Part shown: positions 1,507 to 26,319 of the stretch, piece after piece
Layout: each line of letters begins with the position of its first letter
Numbering within the stretch: position 1 is the first letter of the stretch
Source: a virus
Direction: 5' to 3' (one strand)
Length of the DNA stretch: 29,662 bases
Virus record (IMG/VR): IMGVR_UViG_3300005537_000438
Span: 1-29,662 of that record
Position numbers and translations under genes: made by a program
The notes under the pieces: generated by a model
Told to the model about the DNA's origin: nothing
Database searches by the model: none
What the model saw: the letters and a program-made list of their open reading frames with translations, nothing else

Positions 1507-1577
1507 CCGTCATTCCTCCTTACATAACATCTTTAACGCCGCAAAACATTCACAAACTAGCTTTACAGGTTGTTTTG

Positions 1578-1586
1578 TGATATAAT
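1578..1586 (+). promoter_or_regulatory. Extended -10 promoter for the HNH gene
   Basis: TGATATAAT is a perfect extended -10 (TGn plus TATAAT at 1581-1586) on the plus strand. No good -35 lies at 17 bases; TTTACA is present at 1562-1567 but is too close. A 7-bp inverted repeat, TCACAAA (1550-1556) and TTTGTGA (1574-1580), abuts the -10 and could be an operator. A transcript starting near 1593 would carry the leader hairpin. Confidence 0.55.
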
Positions 1587-1608
1587 TGATGTATTGAGAA
1601 ATATTGTT

Positions 1609-1638
1609 GCCAGAGCGGTACTGGACATACCCTCTGGC
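1609..1638 (+). ncRNA. Structured 5' leader hairpin of the HNH gene
   Basis: GCCAGAG (1609-1615) pairs with CTCTGGC (1632-1638). After one bulged C (1616), GGTA (1617-1620) pairs with TACC (1628-1631), closing the loop CTGGACA. The leader of the unrelated GIY-YIG gene (17007-17037) folds the same way, with the bulged C in the same place, compensating changes in the inner stem and a shared TGGAC loop. Further down, GGGA/TTCC around GATC can fold over the ribosome binding site just before the ATG at 1665. A regulatory or mobility role is inference. Confidence 0.55.
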
Positions 1639-1664
1639 GTGATGAAAGACCTGGGAGATCTTCC

Positions 1665-2543
1665 ATGAGCGACACTATACCCGATACATCCTCTTTCAAG
1701 CAATGTTCCAAATGTAAAGAACTTTTCCCCGCAACAAACATCTACTTTCACAAAGACAGCAGAAAGAAGGATGGCTTTCATTCCAGTTGTAAGATATGCA
1801 AAGGCAATAAGAGTTACAGCATAGTTCGAGAATATCGATTGGGGGAAAAACGGTGTACCAAGTGTAAGAATTGGCACCCTTCCACATCTGAATTCTTTCA
1901 TTCTGACAGAAACCGTTCCGATGGTTTGTTTCCTTGGTGTAAAAAATGTGTTGCCACGCCACGCAGAAGAGAAGTTGAAATTATTGAAATGGGACATAAA
2001 AGATGTATTAAATGTAAAAGGATTTTGCCTGCTACGCGTGAATACTTTCATGTGAGCAAAACTCATCGTTATGGAGTGCAAACGAGATGTAAGCTGTGTG
2101 CTAGTATCGAACGTAAGACTTATCATGAGATGTTTCGTGAGGACGATGCGATTAGGCAGAAAGCCTATCGAAACTCTCATGCTGAAGAGAATAAGCAACG
2201 GCTGCGTGCATATTGTAAAAACAATCCAGATAAATACAAAACCTATAATCACAATCGTGGAGCACGAAAGAAAGCTATTCCTGGTATTCTTACTGAACAA
2301 CAAATCCAACAAAAGTTGAAAGCACAGAAGTACAGATGCTACTATAGTGCTTGTGATCATGCTAAGTTTGAGAAGAAGAATGGACAATACATTTTCCACT
2401 TGGAGCATACCATCCCTTTGAGTCGCATTGAGGAGGGTCCGCGCAACGATGTTGATTATGTTGTCCTGTCTTGTCCTACATGTAATCTGAGTAAGCATGA
2501 TAAGTTGCCACATGAATGGCCGGAAGGGGGTAGGTTGTTCTGA
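1665..2543 (+). CDS. HNH endonuclease with three zinc-finger repeats (homing type)
   Basis: This 292-aa protein is encoded opposite to all phage genes around it. Three related zinc-finger modules fill the N-terminus: C14-x2-C17 with C42-x2-C45, C64-x2-C67 with C92-x2-C95, and C114-x2-C117 with C142-x2-C145. A basic linker follows, then a C-terminal HNH nuclease (about 220-285) with E247-H248, N261, CPTC (270-273), N274 and K277. Such free-standing HNH genes cut DNA and spread as homing endonucleases; the fingers probably bind the target. The ATG at 1665 follows GGGAG with 9-base spacing. It is inserted between the DUF6527-like gene and the amidase gene. Its promoter and leader resemble those of the GIY-YIG gene at 17067, including the first codons (DTIP here, DTVP there). 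Confidence 0.88.
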   Translation: MSDTIPDTSSFKQCSKCKELFPATNIYFHKDSRKKDGFHSSCKICKGNKSYSIVREYRLGEKRCTKCKNWHPSTSEFFHSDRNRSDGLFPWCKKCVATPRRREVEIIEMGHKRCIKCKRILPATREYFHVSKTHRYGVQTRCKLCASIERKTYHEMFREDDAIRQKAYRNSHAEENKQRLRAYCKNNPDKYKTYNHNRGARKKAIPGILTEQQIQQKLKAQKYRCYYSACDHAKFEKKNGQYIFHLEHTIPLSRIEEGPRNDVDYVVLSCPTCNLSKHDKLPHEWPEGGRLF

Positions 2544-16959: not shown

Positions 16960-16988
16960 TTGAACGAATGTTTGGTATGTGGTATACT
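16960..16988 (+). promoter_or_regulatory. Sigma70-like promoter of the GIY-YIG gene
   Basis: TTGAAC (16960-16965) and TATACT (16983-16988) are separated by 17 bases, with TGG directly before the -10 giving an extended -10. Transcription would start near 16995 and run into the leader hairpin and then the gene. This would let the endonuclease be expressed independently of the phage operon. Confidence 0.6.
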
Positions 16989-17006
16989 GAGGAGGTAAAA
17001 TGTTGT

Positions 17007-17053
17007 GCCAGAGCGATGGTTGGACCCATCCCCTGGCGTGGATACGTCTGTAT
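17007..17053 (+). ncRNA. Structured 5' leader of the GIY-YIG gene
   Basis: GCCAGAG (17007-17013) pairs with CCCTGGC (17031-17037) with one A-C mismatch. After the bulged C at 17014, GATGG (17015-17019) pairs with CCATC (17026-17030), closing the loop TTGGAC. A small second hairpin ATAC-GTCT-GTAT (17042-17053) follows, then AAGGAG and the GTG start. The first hairpin has the same geometry as that before the HNH gene (1609-1638). At two inner-stem positions both bases of the pair differ but pairing is kept. Confidence 0.55.
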
Positions 17054-17066
17054 AAGGAGACATATC

Positions 17067-17996
17067 GTGGACACTGTACCACCTCATGATCAATTGGACA
17101 ACCCTCTCCCTCAAACTACCTGGATATACATCCTTAGCGATCCTGTCACACGCGAAGTTCGATACGTGGGCAAGTCGAATGATCCCCAGCACCGATTGAG
17201 AGTACATATTAGGAATAGCGAAGAAGCGACACATAGAGGCCGCTGGGTCAAACATCTCAAATCGCTCGGATTGGAACCACTCCTGGATATCATCGATGAA
17301 GTCTCTGTCGATGAATGGCAAGAGCGTGAGCAATACTGGATTCAATACTACCGTTCTCAAGGAGCACCTCTCACAAATGAAGCTCCGGGTGGAATTGGAA
17401 TGAAATCATTGACACCAGAGATCAGGGCAAAGATTTCTGCGAGCGTGAGAAATGCGTACGCGACAACTGATTTAGCGCAAAGACTTTCCGAAGCGAATAA
17501 GGGAAAGCATTTATCGGATGAAACCAAAGCTAAGATGTCTGCTACGACAAAAGGTCGAAAACGCCCACCTTTTTCTTCCGAATGGAAAGAAAACATACGA
17601 GCAGGCATGAAAGGTGTGACGCCCTCACTAGAAGCTCGTGCTAAAATCTCAAAAGCCCATAAAGGACGTGTGAAATCACAGGAAGAATGCAAAAACATAT
17701 CTGAAGCAAAGAAAGGCGTAAAGCGTAAACCTTTTTCTGCTGAAGCCCGTGCTAATATGGCTAAGGCAAGCAGAGGGCGGAAAAAGTCAGATGAGACACG
17801 GGCAAAAACGTCCACCTCGCTCAAAGGGAGGAAACTTTCTGAAGAGCATTGTCGTGCCATAGGCAATGCTAGTCGAGGGCGAAAACCCTCGCCTGAAACC
17901 CGTGCTAAGATGTCCTTAGCACACAAAAAGCGAAATGCCATAAAAAAATTACCTCCTTCTGATGCTCCTACTTTATGGTCAGATCACGCGGGGTAG
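17067..17996 (+). CDS. GIY-YIG homing-type endonuclease with NUMOD3-like repeats
   Basis: In this 309-aa protein, residues about 18-108 form the GIY-YIG nuclease, with IYI at 20-22, YVG at 33-35, R43, the metal-binding E88 and N104. From about 110 to the end come roughly eight short repeats of the NUMOD3 type (for example SDETKAKMSATTKGRK, SPETRAKMSLAHKKR), the modular DNA-binding tail of free-standing homing endonucleases. The GTG at 17067 follows AAGGAG with 8-base spacing and lies after the leader; an upstream ATG at 16950 would precede the promoter -10. The gene is antisense between the major tail protein and the chaperone, and its last 13 bases overlap the end of the major tail protein gene. 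It encodes no structural function. Confidence 0.9.
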   Translation: MDTVPPHDQLDNPLPQTTWIYILSDPVTREVRYVGKSNDPQHRLRVHIRNSEEATHRGRWVKHLKSLGLEPLLDIIDEVSVDEWQEREQYWIQYYRSQGAPLTNEAPGGIGMKSLTPEIRAKISASVRNAYATTDLAQRLSEANKGKHLSDETKAKMSATTKGRKRPPFSSEWKENIRAGMKGVTPSLEARAKISKAHKGRVKSQEECKNISEAKKGVKRKPFSAEARANMAKASRGRKKSDETRAKTSTSLKGRKLSEEHCRAIGNASRGRKPSPETRAKMSLAHKKRNAIKKLPPSDAPTLWSDHAG

Positions 17997-21234: not shown

Positions 21235-21477
21235 CTACCTCCCTCCCATCACAATCACCCCATCACGCCCGGCTGAAGACACTTCACCGTCACGAGATCT
21301 CGCCTGAACCTGTCCATCACGCCCAAGCGATGAAACTTCACCATCACGCCATACACCTCCCATTTGACCATCACGGAACAGTGCCGTAATTGCCAGAGAT
21401 GCCATCTGGCTCGTTGGCCCTGCCAGGGTGATCAAAAGGGTTCCCCCAAATGTGCGGGGAATGGTGAGTACAGGCAT
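21235..21477 (-). CDS. Small protein with five RDG nonapeptide repeats
   Basis: This 80-aa protein has an ordinary N-terminal half (1-33) and a C-terminal half of five exact 9-residue units, each starting RDG (residues 35, 44, 53, 62 and 71), such as RDGEVSSLG and RDGEVSSAG. The family was not recognised. The period suggests a small beta-solenoid or a sticky tail. Its ATG shares a base with the TAA of the 997-aa gene (TAATG), so translation is coupled, and GGAGGG lies upstream within that gene. It may be a linker or tip for the adjoining fibre-like protein, inferred only from coupling. Confidence 0.65.
   Translation of the reverse strand: MPVLTIPRTFGGTLLITLAGPTSQMASLAITALFRDGQMGGVWRDGEVSSLGRDGQVQARSRDGEVSSAGRDGVIVMGGR
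21241..21375 (-). repeat. Five tandem 27-bp coding repeats
   Basis: The five RDG nonapeptide units of the 80-aa protein are encoded by 27-base units. On the plus strand CCATCACG or CCGTCACG recurs at this period. The units are diverged, and the array runs almost to the stop codon. Confidence 0.85.
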
Positions 21478-24470
21478 TAACTATTAATCCCTCCTGTGAT
21501 GACTCCTGCTTTCAATTCAGGGGAGGCAATGGCCCCTTGCGGAGAAAATATCGTGATACCCGCATTGTAGTGGGTAGAGACTTGAGTAGCGCTTAGGACA
21601 GTATTGTAGAAAGCAACCCCCTGAATTTTCCCGCTGAAGAAGTCATCCGCCGCATTATCCTCCGTTCCAATGTAGCAATAGGTCAGCGCAATTGCAGGCG
21701 TTGCTGCAAGCGGCGATCCTTGCAGGGCACCGTTCACATAAAGGCGCAGGTTCGTGCCATCGTACGTGCCAACAATATAATAGGTTGTTCCATTCACGGC
21801 AGTTGGGCCGAGAATGTTATTGGCGGAGTAGGTATTTAAGCGGATGACCCCCGTAAAGATGCCAATAGCCGCCGCCTCATTGGAGGTATTGGTTCCCCAC
21901 TCAGCCATAATGTGGATGCCCGTTGCAGGCACCGTTGGCATCGTAATCCACCCCTCCATGCTCCAGACCTGAGCACCTGTTGGAAGCCCTGTCGTTGCAG
22001 CTTGCATGTATCCGGTCGTACCATCAAAGAGCATGGAACCGTCTGCTGCGTTTGAGGGGATCATGCTCGCTTGATTGAGGGTGACCGTGCCGTGAAGGGT
22101 GCCATTTTGCGCCTGCGACCCGTAATCCGTGACAGATGTTCCGCTTGTCTCGTTGAGTTTGTACAGACGGATAGGATTATCTCGCAGCACGGTTGCATAA
22201 TAATTCGGTGTTGCAGTATATCCAGGGGTGGCTGCCTGCAAGTCAGAGGCCAGACCTGCTGTACTTGCCGTCGTGATAAAAATGTCCATCGCATCACTGG
22301 CCCATCCGGCCGTTCCAGATGATTGGTAGAAGAAGTCCAGGTATAACTTATCCCCAGTCACGAATGAGACCCCTGAGAGAGCCGTGGCGCTAAATGCAAA
22401 CACAGATCTGGATGTTGTGACAGCGGGACTGGCAAGTGTTAAAGACCCGATGGTGGTGTAGACTCCTCCAGAAGAGCGCTTAGAGAAGCGAATAGTCATA
22501 TTTCCGAGCGTAAGAGATCGTGTAAAGTCCCGCACCGCGACGGAGGCTGACCAGTTCCCTGAGTTCATGGACTGATTTTCAAGCAGGGCTGAGTCGAGGA
22601 GCCATCCGTTCCCGCTTTGCGCAGGAATACTGGCGTTGGTTGTGCCTGTTCCTCCCTGACTGAGCGCCTCCATCCAAAGACTTGTACCACTGGCCGGAGC
22701 CGTTGTCCGTGAAGAAGTTTCTGTTCCACCCAGAGTTGTGGCTAGCTTATCCGCTGTTATAAGTGTGGTAGACGCAGCGGCACTCCCGTATACAGTAAGC
22801 GGAGGGTCTGCTTCATACCCAGGTGTGGCGACCTGGAGATTATTACTCATTCCGAGTGCATAATCAAAGGTCATTGTGATTGCCATCGCATCGCTCGCCC
22901 ATGCATTGGCACCAGTCCCGCTTTGATAGAAATAGTCTATGTAGAGCTTATCCCCAGCACCAAAGGACACACCTGGCATTGCCGTAGCCGGAAATGAGAA
23001 CACCTGAAGACTGTGCGGGACGAAAGGATTGGTGAGCGCAATAGTTCCGATGGTCGTGTAGACGCCAGATGACGAGCGCACAGAGAACCGAATAGTCATA
23101 CTAGAAAGCGTCTGACCGTTGATACGAGACCCATTCTCGACGGTTACGAAGGCTGACCAGTTTCCTGCGGGGATTTTCCTGTTTTCCAAGACTGTTGATT
23201 CGTAGAGCCACCCTTTGCCGCTTTGCGCTGGAAGGGATGCGCTTGTGCTGCCCGTGCCACCTTGCGAGAGCGCTTCCATATAGAGACTTGTCCCACTACT
23301 CGGAGCGCTAGTAATGGGAGTTGCCGTCGCCGTTCCACCTGTTTGTGTGGCAAGTGTAGATGCTGTCGAAAGAGTGACAGAAGAAGTGTTAATGCCATAT
23401 AGCGAGAGTGGGATAAGTCCTCCGTCTGCAAGTGCTATCTCAAAATTGATGCTGTATGGGGCAGCAGTTCCCACCGTGTAGGCCACTCCGATGATATTTG
23501 AGCCATAGGCAACCTGTGGAAAATGATTGTTTGCTCCTGCTGGCACTAGATTGATCTTATCGATATCCCACGTCTGCGTTCCTCCTCGCCAGACGTTGAA
23601 GTCGATGGAGTAGTTGTTCACACTAACATAACTGCACCAGACCGCATAAAAGTTGGAGCCAACCGTCGCGAGTGTCGGTTGCGTATCACTGCCGTTGGAG
23701 GTAAGCGCCGTTTCCGTCCCCCAGGTATCCGACACAGGATCATAGGAGAGCGCCGCAATACCAGCGGTTCCGTTGTAGACAAACATACCCTTGCCCGATG
23801 GGTTGCCACGCAAGCAGAAGGTCGAGGAAGCAGTCGATGCGGCAAGGGAGAACGTTTTTGGCGTGCTCCAACTTCCAAGCGTTGACACAGAGACATCAAT
23901 ACGGACATAGGTAAAAGTAGTCGGTGCCGTCTGATACGCCACGACCAGGAAGTTTCCACAGATGGCCGCAACGGGAGAAGTCGTGGCAGTAACACCGCTG
24001 GCACTGAAACTGACAGTCCAGTTCGACGTCCCAGGCGTCGTCGCTTCATACACCTCGACACTGCCCCCAGTGTGATCAGATACGACGGCCCAATAGCGGG
24101 TATGGATATCACGATAGTGCTGGGCTGATTGAGTTGCCGTTGTGTATGCAGAATCACTCACCACGCTAGCGCTCTGGCTGATTGCGTTGTTGAGATAGAA
24201 GTGCCACTGCACACCCACCCCAGTGATTACGCCAACATCCAAAATGTGCCCAGGCGTTGTAGGGAAGCTTGAAAGTGCAGGGGATGATCCTGCTTCAAGT
24301 GTCGCCTGATGTGACCAAGCACTATAGGGCGGAGAAGCAGTAGAAAAGTTCATCTGTGCTCCGTCGTACCAGAAAATAGATGCAGTCGCACTCCCATCAA
24401 TTGATACTGTTGAGTTCTGCGGGTACGAAGTCCCTTGGGCATTGTTTGTTGTTGCAATCGTAAAAGGCAT
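21477..24470 (-). CDS. Large adhesin/fibre-like protein: propeller-like region, two jelly-roll modules, LamG domain
   Basis: This protein has 997 aa from the ATG at 24470, which has GGAGAGAAAAG upstream; the in-frame ATG at 24503 overlaps the previous gene and is less likely. Residues about 30-350 look like a sialidase-type beta-propeller (repeated TRYWAVVSD, NFLVVAYQT, NFYAVWCSY, NIIGVAYTV blocks). Two homologous modules lie at about 362-555 and 565-755, each with MEALSQGGTG, a Q-S-G-x-GW segment, RSSGVYTTIG or RSSGGVYTTIG, and ATPGY. A LamG-type sandwich follows (about 757-970, with MEGWITMP and RLYVNGALQG). All are typical of carbohydrate or surface binding. The location upstream of the head-tail connectors suggests a head fibre or capsid-attached adhesin, though a tail fibre is possible. 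Confidence 0.65.
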   Translation of the reverse strand: MPFTIATTNNAQGTSYPQNSTVSIDGSATASIFWYDGAQMNFSTASPPYSAWSHQATLEAGSSPALSSFPTTPGHILDVGVITGVGVQWHFYLNNAISQSASVVSDSAYTTATQSAQHYRDIHTRYWAVVSDHTGGSVEVYEATTPGTSNWTVSFSASGVTATTSPVAAICGNFLVVAYQTAPTTFTYVRIDVSVSTLGSWSTPKTFSLAASTASSTFCLRGNPSGKGMFVYNGTAGIAALSYDPVSDTWGTETALTSNGSDTQPTLATVGSNFYAVWCSYVSVNNYSIDFNVWRGGTQTWDIDKINLVPAGANNHFPQVAYGSNIIGVAYTVGTAAPYSINFEIALADGGLIPLSLYGINTSSVTLSTASTLATQTGGTATATPITSAPSSGTSLYMEALSQGGTGSTSASLPAQSGKGWLYESTVLENRKIPAGNWSAFVTVENGSRINGQTLSSMTIRFSVRSSSGVYTTIGTIALTNPFVPHSLQVFSFPATAMPGVSFGAGDKLYIDYFYQSGTGANAWASDAMAITMTFDYALGMSNNLQVATPGYEADPPLTVYGSAAASTTLITADKLATTLGGTETSSRTTAPASGTSLWMEALSQGGTGTTNASIPAQSGNGWLLDSALLENQSMNSGNWSASVAVRDFTRSLTLGNMTIRFSKRSSGGVYTTIGSLTLASPAVTTSRSVFAFSATALSGVSFVTGDKLYLDFFYQSSGTAGWASDAMDIFITTASTAGLASDLQAATPGYTATPNYYATVLRDNPIRLYKLNETSGTSVTDYGSQAQNGTLHGTVTLNQASMIPSNAADGSMLFDGTTGYMQAATTGLPTGAQVWSMEGWITMPTVPATGIHIMAEWGTNTSNEAAAIGIFTGVIRLNTYSANNILGPTAVNGTTYYIVGTYDGTNLRLYVNGALQGSPLAATPAIALTYCYIGTEDNAADDFFSGKIQGVAFYNTVLSATQVSTHYNAGITIFSPQGAIASPELKAGVITGGINS

Positions 24471-24489
24471 TTCTCTTTTCTCTCCAGGG

Positions 24490-26319
24490 CTAGGCCCATG
24501 CACTCACTTTGACGCCGCCTGTGCCATTGAGCACTGCTGTGCCTCCTGACGGGACAAATACGTGGAGAGTGGTCATGGGAATGTTGACCCACTCCACCAT
24601 CACTGAGTTTGCGCTAGGCGACGGGAGGCTCGGACTGCCAATAGTGGCAGTCACATCGGCATCCCAGTAGACTGTGCCGCCTGACTCGTTTTGTATTCGG
24701 ACACGCCGTGCGACTGTACTTGCTCCAGCAAATGTAATAGGATTATCGGCATTGACCGTTAGACTACTGGCCGAGAGGGCCAGTTTTCCGCCCGCACCAC
24801 TCAGCGTGACCACTGGTGTTGAAAATGGGGAGGGAATGGCATGAGCAGTAACGGTGATTTGCCCAGTGGCATACCCGCTGATACGCGATCGAATGGTTTG
24901 GAGTCCCGCACACGACGCCTGGAAGATGCCTGTGGTTGCCGTACTCATCCCAAAGACATTGGTGCCCAGTTGTGTGGCCTGAAGCCCATAAAAATTGACC
25001 CCATCTTCACTGCCCTCGAAATTCACGGTTCCTTGATAGGTACCCGTGACAGTAAAAGTCACCGTACCCATGCCAAGGACAGAGAGTGTCGCTCCGTTAC
25101 TGTTCGCGCTTGCACTGCTTTGTAGAGTCGTGGAAATAAAGGCAGTTGCTGATGCTTTGACAGAAAGGTTCCCATTGACATCGATGGTTGCTTGCCTCCA
25201 CGGGCAGACTCCATCAGAAAGTTGCACATTGTTGCGTGCGGTATCGCTCACGTGGACGGTATTGCAAATCAGTTGTCCGTTGGTGGGAGGAGCACCCGCC
25301 CCTGCTGCGGCCATCATTTTTAATGGAAGCGTATTGAGATTTGGGCCTGGTGCGCCTGTAAAGGTTTGTGCGACTACGTTATCCAGACTGTCGATGCACC
25401 AATAGGTATGATCACCTCGATAAAACATGTGATAGTAGTGGACACCAGCATCCTGTGGTTGTTTTCTTGTTCCTGTAGCTTGTGAGAGGTCCGCGATTTG
25501 CTGCCTGACACCTCCCTGATACATGACAGCAAAGAGCCTACCACCAATGGCTATCTCAAACCCTGCGGCATCGACCAGTGGAGCAAAGGCAGTGGGGATA
25601 GCGGGAGAGGTTCCTGTTCCCCAGAAAAAATAGGTATTCGGGATGTAGGGATAGGGAACGTTATTCCCATACGTGATTTGAAGCCATCCCGGATTCGCTG
25701 GTCCAAATGTCGGCTGACTTTCCAGACAACTCCATCCATTTGCGAGCGTTCCCGTTCCGAGCCTCGTATCCGTCGCCTCATTGAGGGCGGCAATACCTCC
25801 TCGTCCCCATGTTGGCGTTTTCCATCGATTCACGGTATCTAGTCCTGTATCAAAGGAATCCAGAAAGAGTTGTGTTGGCTCCATGCTCACCCGCAACTCT
25901 CCAGGCGCAAAGACGGTCGCTTGATAATTGTCCGTTGATGCAGGTCCATTCAGTGTTGTTATGGAACTCCCGACACTCACCACGTTGAGCGGCGTCTGAT
26001 CAGACGCGATGGCAACAGGGAGGGAAGCAGACATGGTAATCTGCCCAAGTGCAAGCGATACTCCTCCTACTTGTGTAATGTTGTCAGAGAGAGCACCGGA
26101 TGCATTGATAGCAAGCTGGTTACCTATATTGAAAAGAGCGACATGGGCATTATTCGAGGAGTCCACCGCCATTGAGTTCGCAGCGTTGTACACGGCAATA
26201 TGTAGATTGTTGTTGGCATCTACCGCAGCCTGGTTTGTTCCGGCTACGTCAACAATCTTCACATTTCCAATGGTATTACTTCCTGCTGGAAGAGAAGACC
26301 CAATATTAACAGTAGACAT
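24490..26319 (-). CDS. Modular fibre/adhesin-like protein
   Basis: In this 609-aa protein, the N-terminal 130 residues share modules with the 416-aa neighbour (LPAGSNTIGNV, ITQVGGVSLALGQITMSASL, PVAIASDQ). The middle (about 145-370) looks like a lectin-type sandwich with LFLDSFDTGLDTVNRWKTPT and many aromatics. It is followed by a phage beta domain (about 400-500, VTFTVTGTYQGTVNFEGSED) and a final domain (about 510-609) ending near HVFVPSGGTAVLNGTGGV. It probably binds surface polymers as part of the virion. The ATG is at 26319, 15 bases after the stop of the previous gene, with a weak ribosome site (GAAAGCG), so expression may depend on coupling. No enzyme motif was seen. Confidence 0.65.
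   Translation of the reverse strand: MSTVNIGSSLPAGSNTIGNVKIVDVAGTNQAAVDANNNLHIAVYNAANSMAVDSSNNAHVALFNIGNQLAINASGALSDNITQVGGVSLALGQITMSASLPVAIASDQTPLNVVSVGSSITTLNGPASTDNYQATVFAPGELRVSMEPTQLFLDSFDTGLDTVNRWKTPTWGRGGIAALNEATDTRLGTGTLANGWSCLESQPTFGPANPGWLQITYGNNVPYPYIPNTYFFWGTGTSPAIPTAFAPLVDAAGFEIAIGGRLFAVMYQGGVRQQIADLSQATGTRKQPQDAGVHYYHMFYRGDHTYWCIDSLDNVVAQTFTGAPGPNLNTLPLKMMAAAGAGAPPTNGQLICNTVHVSDTARNNVQLSDGVCPWRQATIDVNGNLSVKASATAFISTTLQSSASANSNGATLSVLGMGTVTFTVTGTYQGTVNFEGSEDGVNFYGLQATQLGTNVFGMSTATTGIFQASCAGLQTIRSRISGYATGQITVTAHAIPSPFSTPVVTLSGAGGKLALSASSLTVNADNPITFAGASTVARRVRIQNESGGTVYWDADVTATIGSPSLPSPSANSVMVEWVNIPMTTLHVFVPSGGTAVLNGTGGVKVSAWA

Follow-up and report, generated by a model that had tools for sequence, protein, structure and literature searches.

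Why two unrelated endonuclease genes of one virus should begin behind the same upstream sequence is the question raised by virus record IMGVR_UViG_3300005537_000438, of which positions 1 to 29,662 (29.7 kb) were analysed and are referred to here as the window. An HNH endonuclease gene on the plus strand (1665-2543) starts with ATG and encodes a protein of 292 amino acids that begins MSDTIP and joins Cys-rich zinc-binding repeats to an HNH domain (Pfam E-value 2.3e-5). A second plus-strand gene (17067-17996), starting with GTG, encodes a GIY-YIG/NUMOD3 endonuclease of 309 amino acids that begins MDTVPP (E-values 1.7e-9 for GIY-YIG and 2.9e-12 for NUMOD3). The upstream neighbours of both lie on the minus strand. 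Each gene has its own sense promoter, composed at 1558-1586 (+) of a -35 box TAGCTT (1558-1563), a 17-nt spacer and an extended -10 box TG-A-TATAAT (1581-1586), and at 16960-16988 (+) of TTGAAC-N17-TATACT, again with an extended -10 box (TG-G-TATACT, 16983-16988); a TTGCTT-N17-TATAAT promoter is found again upstream of other leaders. Between the -35 and -10 boxes of the sense promoter lies a dyad like GCTTNNNAAGC (1558-1570, and in most leaders' upstream regions), perhaps an operator. Both nuclease genes recur, 100% identical, on an 80-kb sister contig, which has two additional leaders as well, for a total of four.

The initial annotation had reported a hairpin with a bulged C, an extended -10 box and common first codons at both genes, and all of these are present as described. 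The HNH leader at 1609-1641 reads GCCAGAG-C-GGTA-CTGGACA-TACC-CTCTGGC-GTG, and the hairpin that it forms (hairpin 1, 1609-1638, folding strand probably minus) consists of an outer stem of 7 bp, a bulged base and an inner stem of 4-5 bp. In the GIY-YIG leader, 17007-17040 reads GCCAGAG-C-GATGG-TTGGAC-CCATC-CCCTGGC-GTG, and hairpin 1 (17007-17037, likewise probably minus) has a 5-bp inner stem; the hairpin stands as first drawn, except that the sixth pair of its outer stem is A.C in sense and G.U in antisense. A second hairpin follows in each leader: at 1642-1666 (-) an 11-bp minus-strand stem lies opposite the Shine-Dalgarno sequence GGGAG and the beginning of the start codon, and at 17041-17066 (-) the hairpin covers the Shine-Dalgarno sequence AAGGAG. 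Across the family, the outer stem of hairpin 1 measures 7 bp, the inner stem 4 bp and the loop 6-8 nt, with one bulged base, and the stem of hairpin 2, roughly 5 bp long, contains the Shine-Dalgarno sequence in nearly all leaders. The record contains the leader pattern twice, and a reversed control contains it nowhere; the two bare hairpins by themselves are weak (z about -2 to -3).

The leader is a conserved two-hairpin element under selection for its fold. In an alignment of 31 leaders, 92.1% of cells are paired, versus 61.3% after shuffling and 36-46% with slid partners, the arms of hairpin 2 having been aligned by eye, which biases its pairing percentage towards structure. Compensatory changes on both sides occur at all 16 of 16 pairs, as the covarying fold proposed earlier would have it, and RNAalifold recovers hairpin 1 unsupervised from an unedited MAFFT alignment. 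Three results depend less on the hand alignment of hairpin 2: out-of-sample leaders are 91.2% paired (67.2% shuffled), an Actinomycetota leader set is 93.5% paired against 79.1% when shuffled, and exchange of arms between sequences gives a z score of 11.2 in the case of hairpin 1 and of 7.9 in that of hairpin 2. Hairpin 2 is hypervariable, with compensation. Rfam covariance models match the leaders on neither strand, in keeping with the earlier view that no named RNA family has this pattern. Elsewhere in the window, sub-threshold Rfam matches to RAGATH-10 (24472-24574, minus strand; 28.8 bits, cut-off 41.2) and to the fluoride riboswitch (21448-21515, plus strand; 20.4 bits, cut-off 34) are probably due to chance.

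All searches together yielded 47 leaders in virus contigs. A pattern scan contributed two further leaders, L010 and L173, most of the initial viral pattern matches being chance, and an alignment of four HNH proteins led to 80 loci in viruses, roughly 30 of which have a leader. A covariance model built from the 31 leaders (R1) was run on the parent contigs irrespective of genes; it gave 41 matches, and every one that was followed adjoins a nuclease gene at its 5' side. The search that the initial annotation had recommended thus finds further copies before many unrelated endonucleases: HNH, GIY-YIG, LEM-3-like GIY-YIG, endonuclease VII, AP2-HNH_3 and NUMOD4-HNH_3 genes, and a Vsr/DUF559 gene with a NUMOD3-like match. 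Pfam assigns the 47 leader-linked proteins to HNH (31), endonuclease VII (6) and HNH_3 (3), with single matches to GIY-YIG, LEM-3 GIY-YIG, Vsr/DUF559 and LAGLIDADG_3, the last (L332, on a separate contig) just below the cut-off. Judged from these domains, the leader-linked viral genes encode homing-type nucleases. Across four virus contigs and the record, 12 of 15 such genes carry the leader, and there are no model matches elsewhere in these sequences.

An exchange of nuclease bodies behind one leader, raised as one possibility in the initial annotation, is supported by near-identical leaders on unrelated nucleases. L251 (HNH) and L332 (LAGLIDADG-like) are 98% identical over the promoter and hairpin 1, the leaders of L374 (endonuclease VII) and L378 (AP2-HNH) are 84% identical, and the proteins behind near-identical leaders have little in common beyond the N-terminus. 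A BLAST search of the leaders against phage records gave no match. A separate observation concerns the proteins: a short motif like a beta-clamp-binding peptide (QxxLxF, QxxFxF) occurs within the first 50 residues of L257, L261, L271, L374, L375, L378 and L329, the last a minus-strand gene, and is common to unrelated leader-linked nucleases (regular expressions match 8 times in the 2350 residues of the N-termini and 6 times in 10347 residues elsewhere).

The element is not confined to these soil viruses. Among 400 Chloroflexota genomes three carry the leader, all within one class (47 genomes, one of 13.7 Mb, a size suggestive of Ktedonobacteria), and two of the three linked genes look truncated or degraded; in one chromosomal copy (L384, 1225-1336) the loop of hairpin 1 carries an insertion of about 30 nt, which could form an extra hairpin. 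A broader model that includes actinobacterial members and the first codons (R2) matched 20 of 396 Actinomycetota genomes and none of 398 Pseudomonadota genomes. The Actinomycetota genes concerned encode HTH_17 (excisionase-type) proteins, a resolvase, an HNH-like ORF, small Cys-rich ORFs and an integrase that follows the leader and a 17-codon ORF; similar hairpins lie 5' of a Gordonia phage integrase and of a plasmid ParA gene. These contexts indicate that mobile elements in general are the home of this leader, and the restriction to endonucleases implied by the first two copies does not hold. A pattern scan of GTDB gave 68 matches, none with a leader-plus-nuclease context by eye. Two Deinococcus TnpB genes, L397 (locus positions 1501-1579; NZ_CP115166.1) and L403, apparently have the same two-hairpin leader, with ATA at the usual distance after the Shine-Dalgarno sequence and the annotated ATG 18 nt further on; the L397 leader is alike by eye and by BLAST, yet neither R1 nor R2 scores its record.

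Which strand folds can be read from the imperfect pairs. An RNA folding in the sense direction should tolerate G.U and avoid A.C, and the reverse is found: read in sense, the off-pairs of three alignments comprise 66 A.C cells and 2 G.U cells, and hairpin 1 in the unedited MAFFT alignment has 21 and 3, so that the constrained strand is the complement. Arithmetic on the three alignments shows 98.6-99.2% of cells to pair when read antisense. The antisense fold is more stable by 7.5 kcal/mol on average and is the better one in 46 of 47 leaders, shuffled regions showing a sense-antisense difference of +0.45 kcal/mol (sd 2.95). The fold is therefore selected on the strand opposite the mRNA, and the earlier picture of the mRNA leader as the folding molecule is not supported.

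The best-placed rival nevertheless keeps to the mRNA and supposes that hairpin 2 holds the Shine-Dalgarno sequence, hairpin 1 serves recognition or stabilisation, and translation is limited or timed in cis. Hairpin 2 does overlap the Shine-Dalgarno sequence in nearly all leaders, and phage T4 offers a precedent in I-TevI, segB and mobE (PMC2988022). The excess of A.C over G.U in sense speaks against such a leader, as does its failure to explain a frame-independent hexamer in the first codons, described below. Net sequestration in sense was rejected, the Shine-Dalgarno core being unpaired at 0.50 vs 0.47 in controls, and we regard control in cis by the mRNA as unlikely. Other candidates were tried on the sense strand. 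A helix that would join the 5' end of the mRNA to codons 4-8 over a long range is striking by eye and weak over whole regions (74 of 2000 permutations); its z of 4.1 appears only in a segment picked after looking, and the helix is unproven. A Shine-Dalgarno sequence and start just before hairpin 1 (for example 16989-17002) occur in 20 of 47 leaders compared with 4.3 in shuffles, and an upstream ORF was rejected despite this count because neither frame nor stop is conserved. A presumed resemblance to a RegA site was also among the ideas dropped.

The common first codons, pointed out in the initial annotation, find no support as a protein or sense signal. TATACC is kept in them despite a shift of frame (DTIP, MDTLYP, MNSLYL), which indicates that DTIP/DTVP is not a protein motif but a nucleotide-level signal; on the minus strand it reads GGTATA, part of a predicted -10 box. 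For the HNH gene the predicted antisense promoter has its -10 box TATAGT at 1674-1679 (-), within codons 4-5, and its -35 box TTGCTT at 1698-1703 (-), with a spacer of 18; for the GIY-YIG gene the corresponding boxes are TACAGT, preceded by TG, at 17073-17078 (-) and TTGTCC at 17096-17101 (-), with a spacer of 17. A minus-strand TANNNT lies at +6 to +20 from the start in 47 of 47 viral leaders, versus 2-7 of 47 in control windows. In Actinomycetota a minus-strand -10 box falls in codons 2-7 of 21 of 21 leaders (0-1 of 21 in controls), a count that is partly selected because R2 contains the first codons; the box is also present in five Actinomycetota leaders with a clear hairpin 2 that were found by a hairpin-1-only pattern. 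The antisense -35 boxes are weak, though above shuffles (-35-like hexamers at 16-18 nt spacing score 8.36 vs 7.66 shuffled, sd 0.13), and a simple promoter scan of the record did not call the predicted antisense promoters. The hairpin containing the Shine-Dalgarno sequence, the selected strand and the minus-strand -10 box behind the common codons had all been missed by the initial annotation.

Two further explanations accept the minus strand. It might act as a single-stranded DNA hairpin in mobility, replication or recombination, like integron attC sites; the same strand bias would be expected, G.T pairing better than A.C in DNA, and the accompanying genes move DNA, but the fixed place over the ribosome-binding site and start codon, the constant sense promoter and the minus-strand -10 box make this improbable. 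Slightly less credible still is a minus-strand transcript that serves as a trans-acting small RNA or as the 5' leader for a minus-strand gene lying upstream, with the sense gene not its target: both upstream neighbours in the record would suit it, whereas those of two of the four leaders on the 80-kb sister contig lie on the plus strand.

The element combines predicted promoters that face each other, an antisense strand with structure across the ribosome-binding site, a bulge in one stem, and stems that diverge fast with compensation. This combination recalls the counter-transcribed RNAs of plasmids and insertion sequences, and therefore suggests an antisense RNA that probably represses translation. 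We favour, at a probability of about 0.6, a sense-antisense RNA control cassette at each gene start, in which a counter-transcribed RNA (ctRNA) over the ribosome-binding site represses a mobile DNA enzyme. The upstream promoter, of the sigma-70 type, would make the mRNA, and the opposing promoter, with its -10 box within the first few codons, would make a short antisense RNA. The 5' end of this RNA would lie close to the start codon, and the RNA would fold into hairpin 2, opposite the Shine-Dalgarno sequence, and then into hairpin 1 with its bulge; paired to the leader, its complement, it would keep ribosomes from binding, and the mobile DNA enzyme would thereby be held at a low, copy-number-sensitive level. 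Minus-strand transcription, the 3' end of the transcript and translational repression are steps that we infer. The timing of translation suggested in the initial annotation is possible, through antisense pairing. The main gaps in the case for an antisense RNA are the weak -35 boxes and the terminator: no intrinsic terminator was found after hairpin 1 on the minus strand in the record, and a minus-strand T-run lies within 40 nt in only 13 of 47 leaders.

A wider and distinctly more tentative proposal is that one antisense-RNA family forms a common brake on homing nucleases, integrases, excisionases and perhaps TnpB in viruses of Chloroflexota and elements of Actinomycetota. Because of the compensated variation of the stems, a copy would silence in trans no more than itself and its near relatives, and selfish genes would exclude one another much as in incompatibility. 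Plasmid replication and some transposases are known to be under antisense control; a search of the open PMC subset turned up no report of such an RNA for homing endonucleases, a result that weighs little as evidence of absence. One portable cassette shared by many unrelated mobile enzymes would account for the way in which selfish nucleases are prevented from doing harm to their phage, and the covariance model together with the minus-strand -10 box provides a sequence handle for finding such genes and testing copy-dependent exclusion.

Several known systems invite comparison. HEARO/OMEGA RNAs are likewise structured and nuclease-associated; unlike them, the leaders have no Rfam match and, in the viral cases, no IscB/TnpB partner. 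The int-alpA RNA (RF02996) is also structured and gene-preceding, but it has a different fold and matches none of the leaders. It lies directly 5' of distant HNH relatives (L285, 2898-2964; L291, 2915-2981), and L282, L284 and L287 have leaders of similar appearance by eye, with no Rfam match. The SAS/ESAS (start-associated sequences) of cluster K mycobacteriophages place a motif, in SAS a nearly invariant GGGATAGGAGCCC, over the ribosome-binding site just before start codons; inverted repeats adjoin it on the upstream side, the genes belong to many families, and the authors found little support for an mRNA hairpin formed by the repeats (PMC3203893). Position and multi-family use are shared with our element, whose hairpin 2 is in contrast hypervariable with compensation, and R1 had no match in the part of the phage Anaya sequence that was searched, where 11 SAS-like sites occur. 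The T4-like homing endonuclease genes (I-TevI, I-TevII, I-TevIII, segB, mobE) have RNA structure at the ribosome-binding site, in sense hairpins that hide it on transcripts from upstream promoters (PMC2988022). The leaders resemble these in placing structure at the ribosome-binding site of phage homing-type endonucleases, and differ in that they form one family, are biased towards the antisense strand, have a promoter lying outside the structure, and show no hiding of the site.

Also among the nearest counterparts are the counter-transcribed antisense RNAs of plasmids and insertion sequences, such as CopA/CopT, RNAI, pMV158 RNAII-repB and IS10 RNA-OUT, in which an intrinsic terminator is usual, not universal. 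Unlike these, the present element shows no intrinsic terminator, and a single family stands over many unrelated enzymes in two phyla. YUNR loops, as in ctRNAs, are present in hairpin 1 of 22 of 31 leaders in sense and 18 of 31 in antisense, raw counts for which no expectation was computed; the YUNR loop rule and the details of pMV158 RNAII-repB are given in PMC4485353. With these RNAs the element shares a short antisense strand that is structured and covers the start of a gene for mobility or replication, and a bulged stem near the loop; promoters that face each other, as theirs do, are predicted here, and the overlap with the ribosome-binding site or start that marks ctRNAs is found here in hairpin 2, which spans the Shine-Dalgarno sequence.
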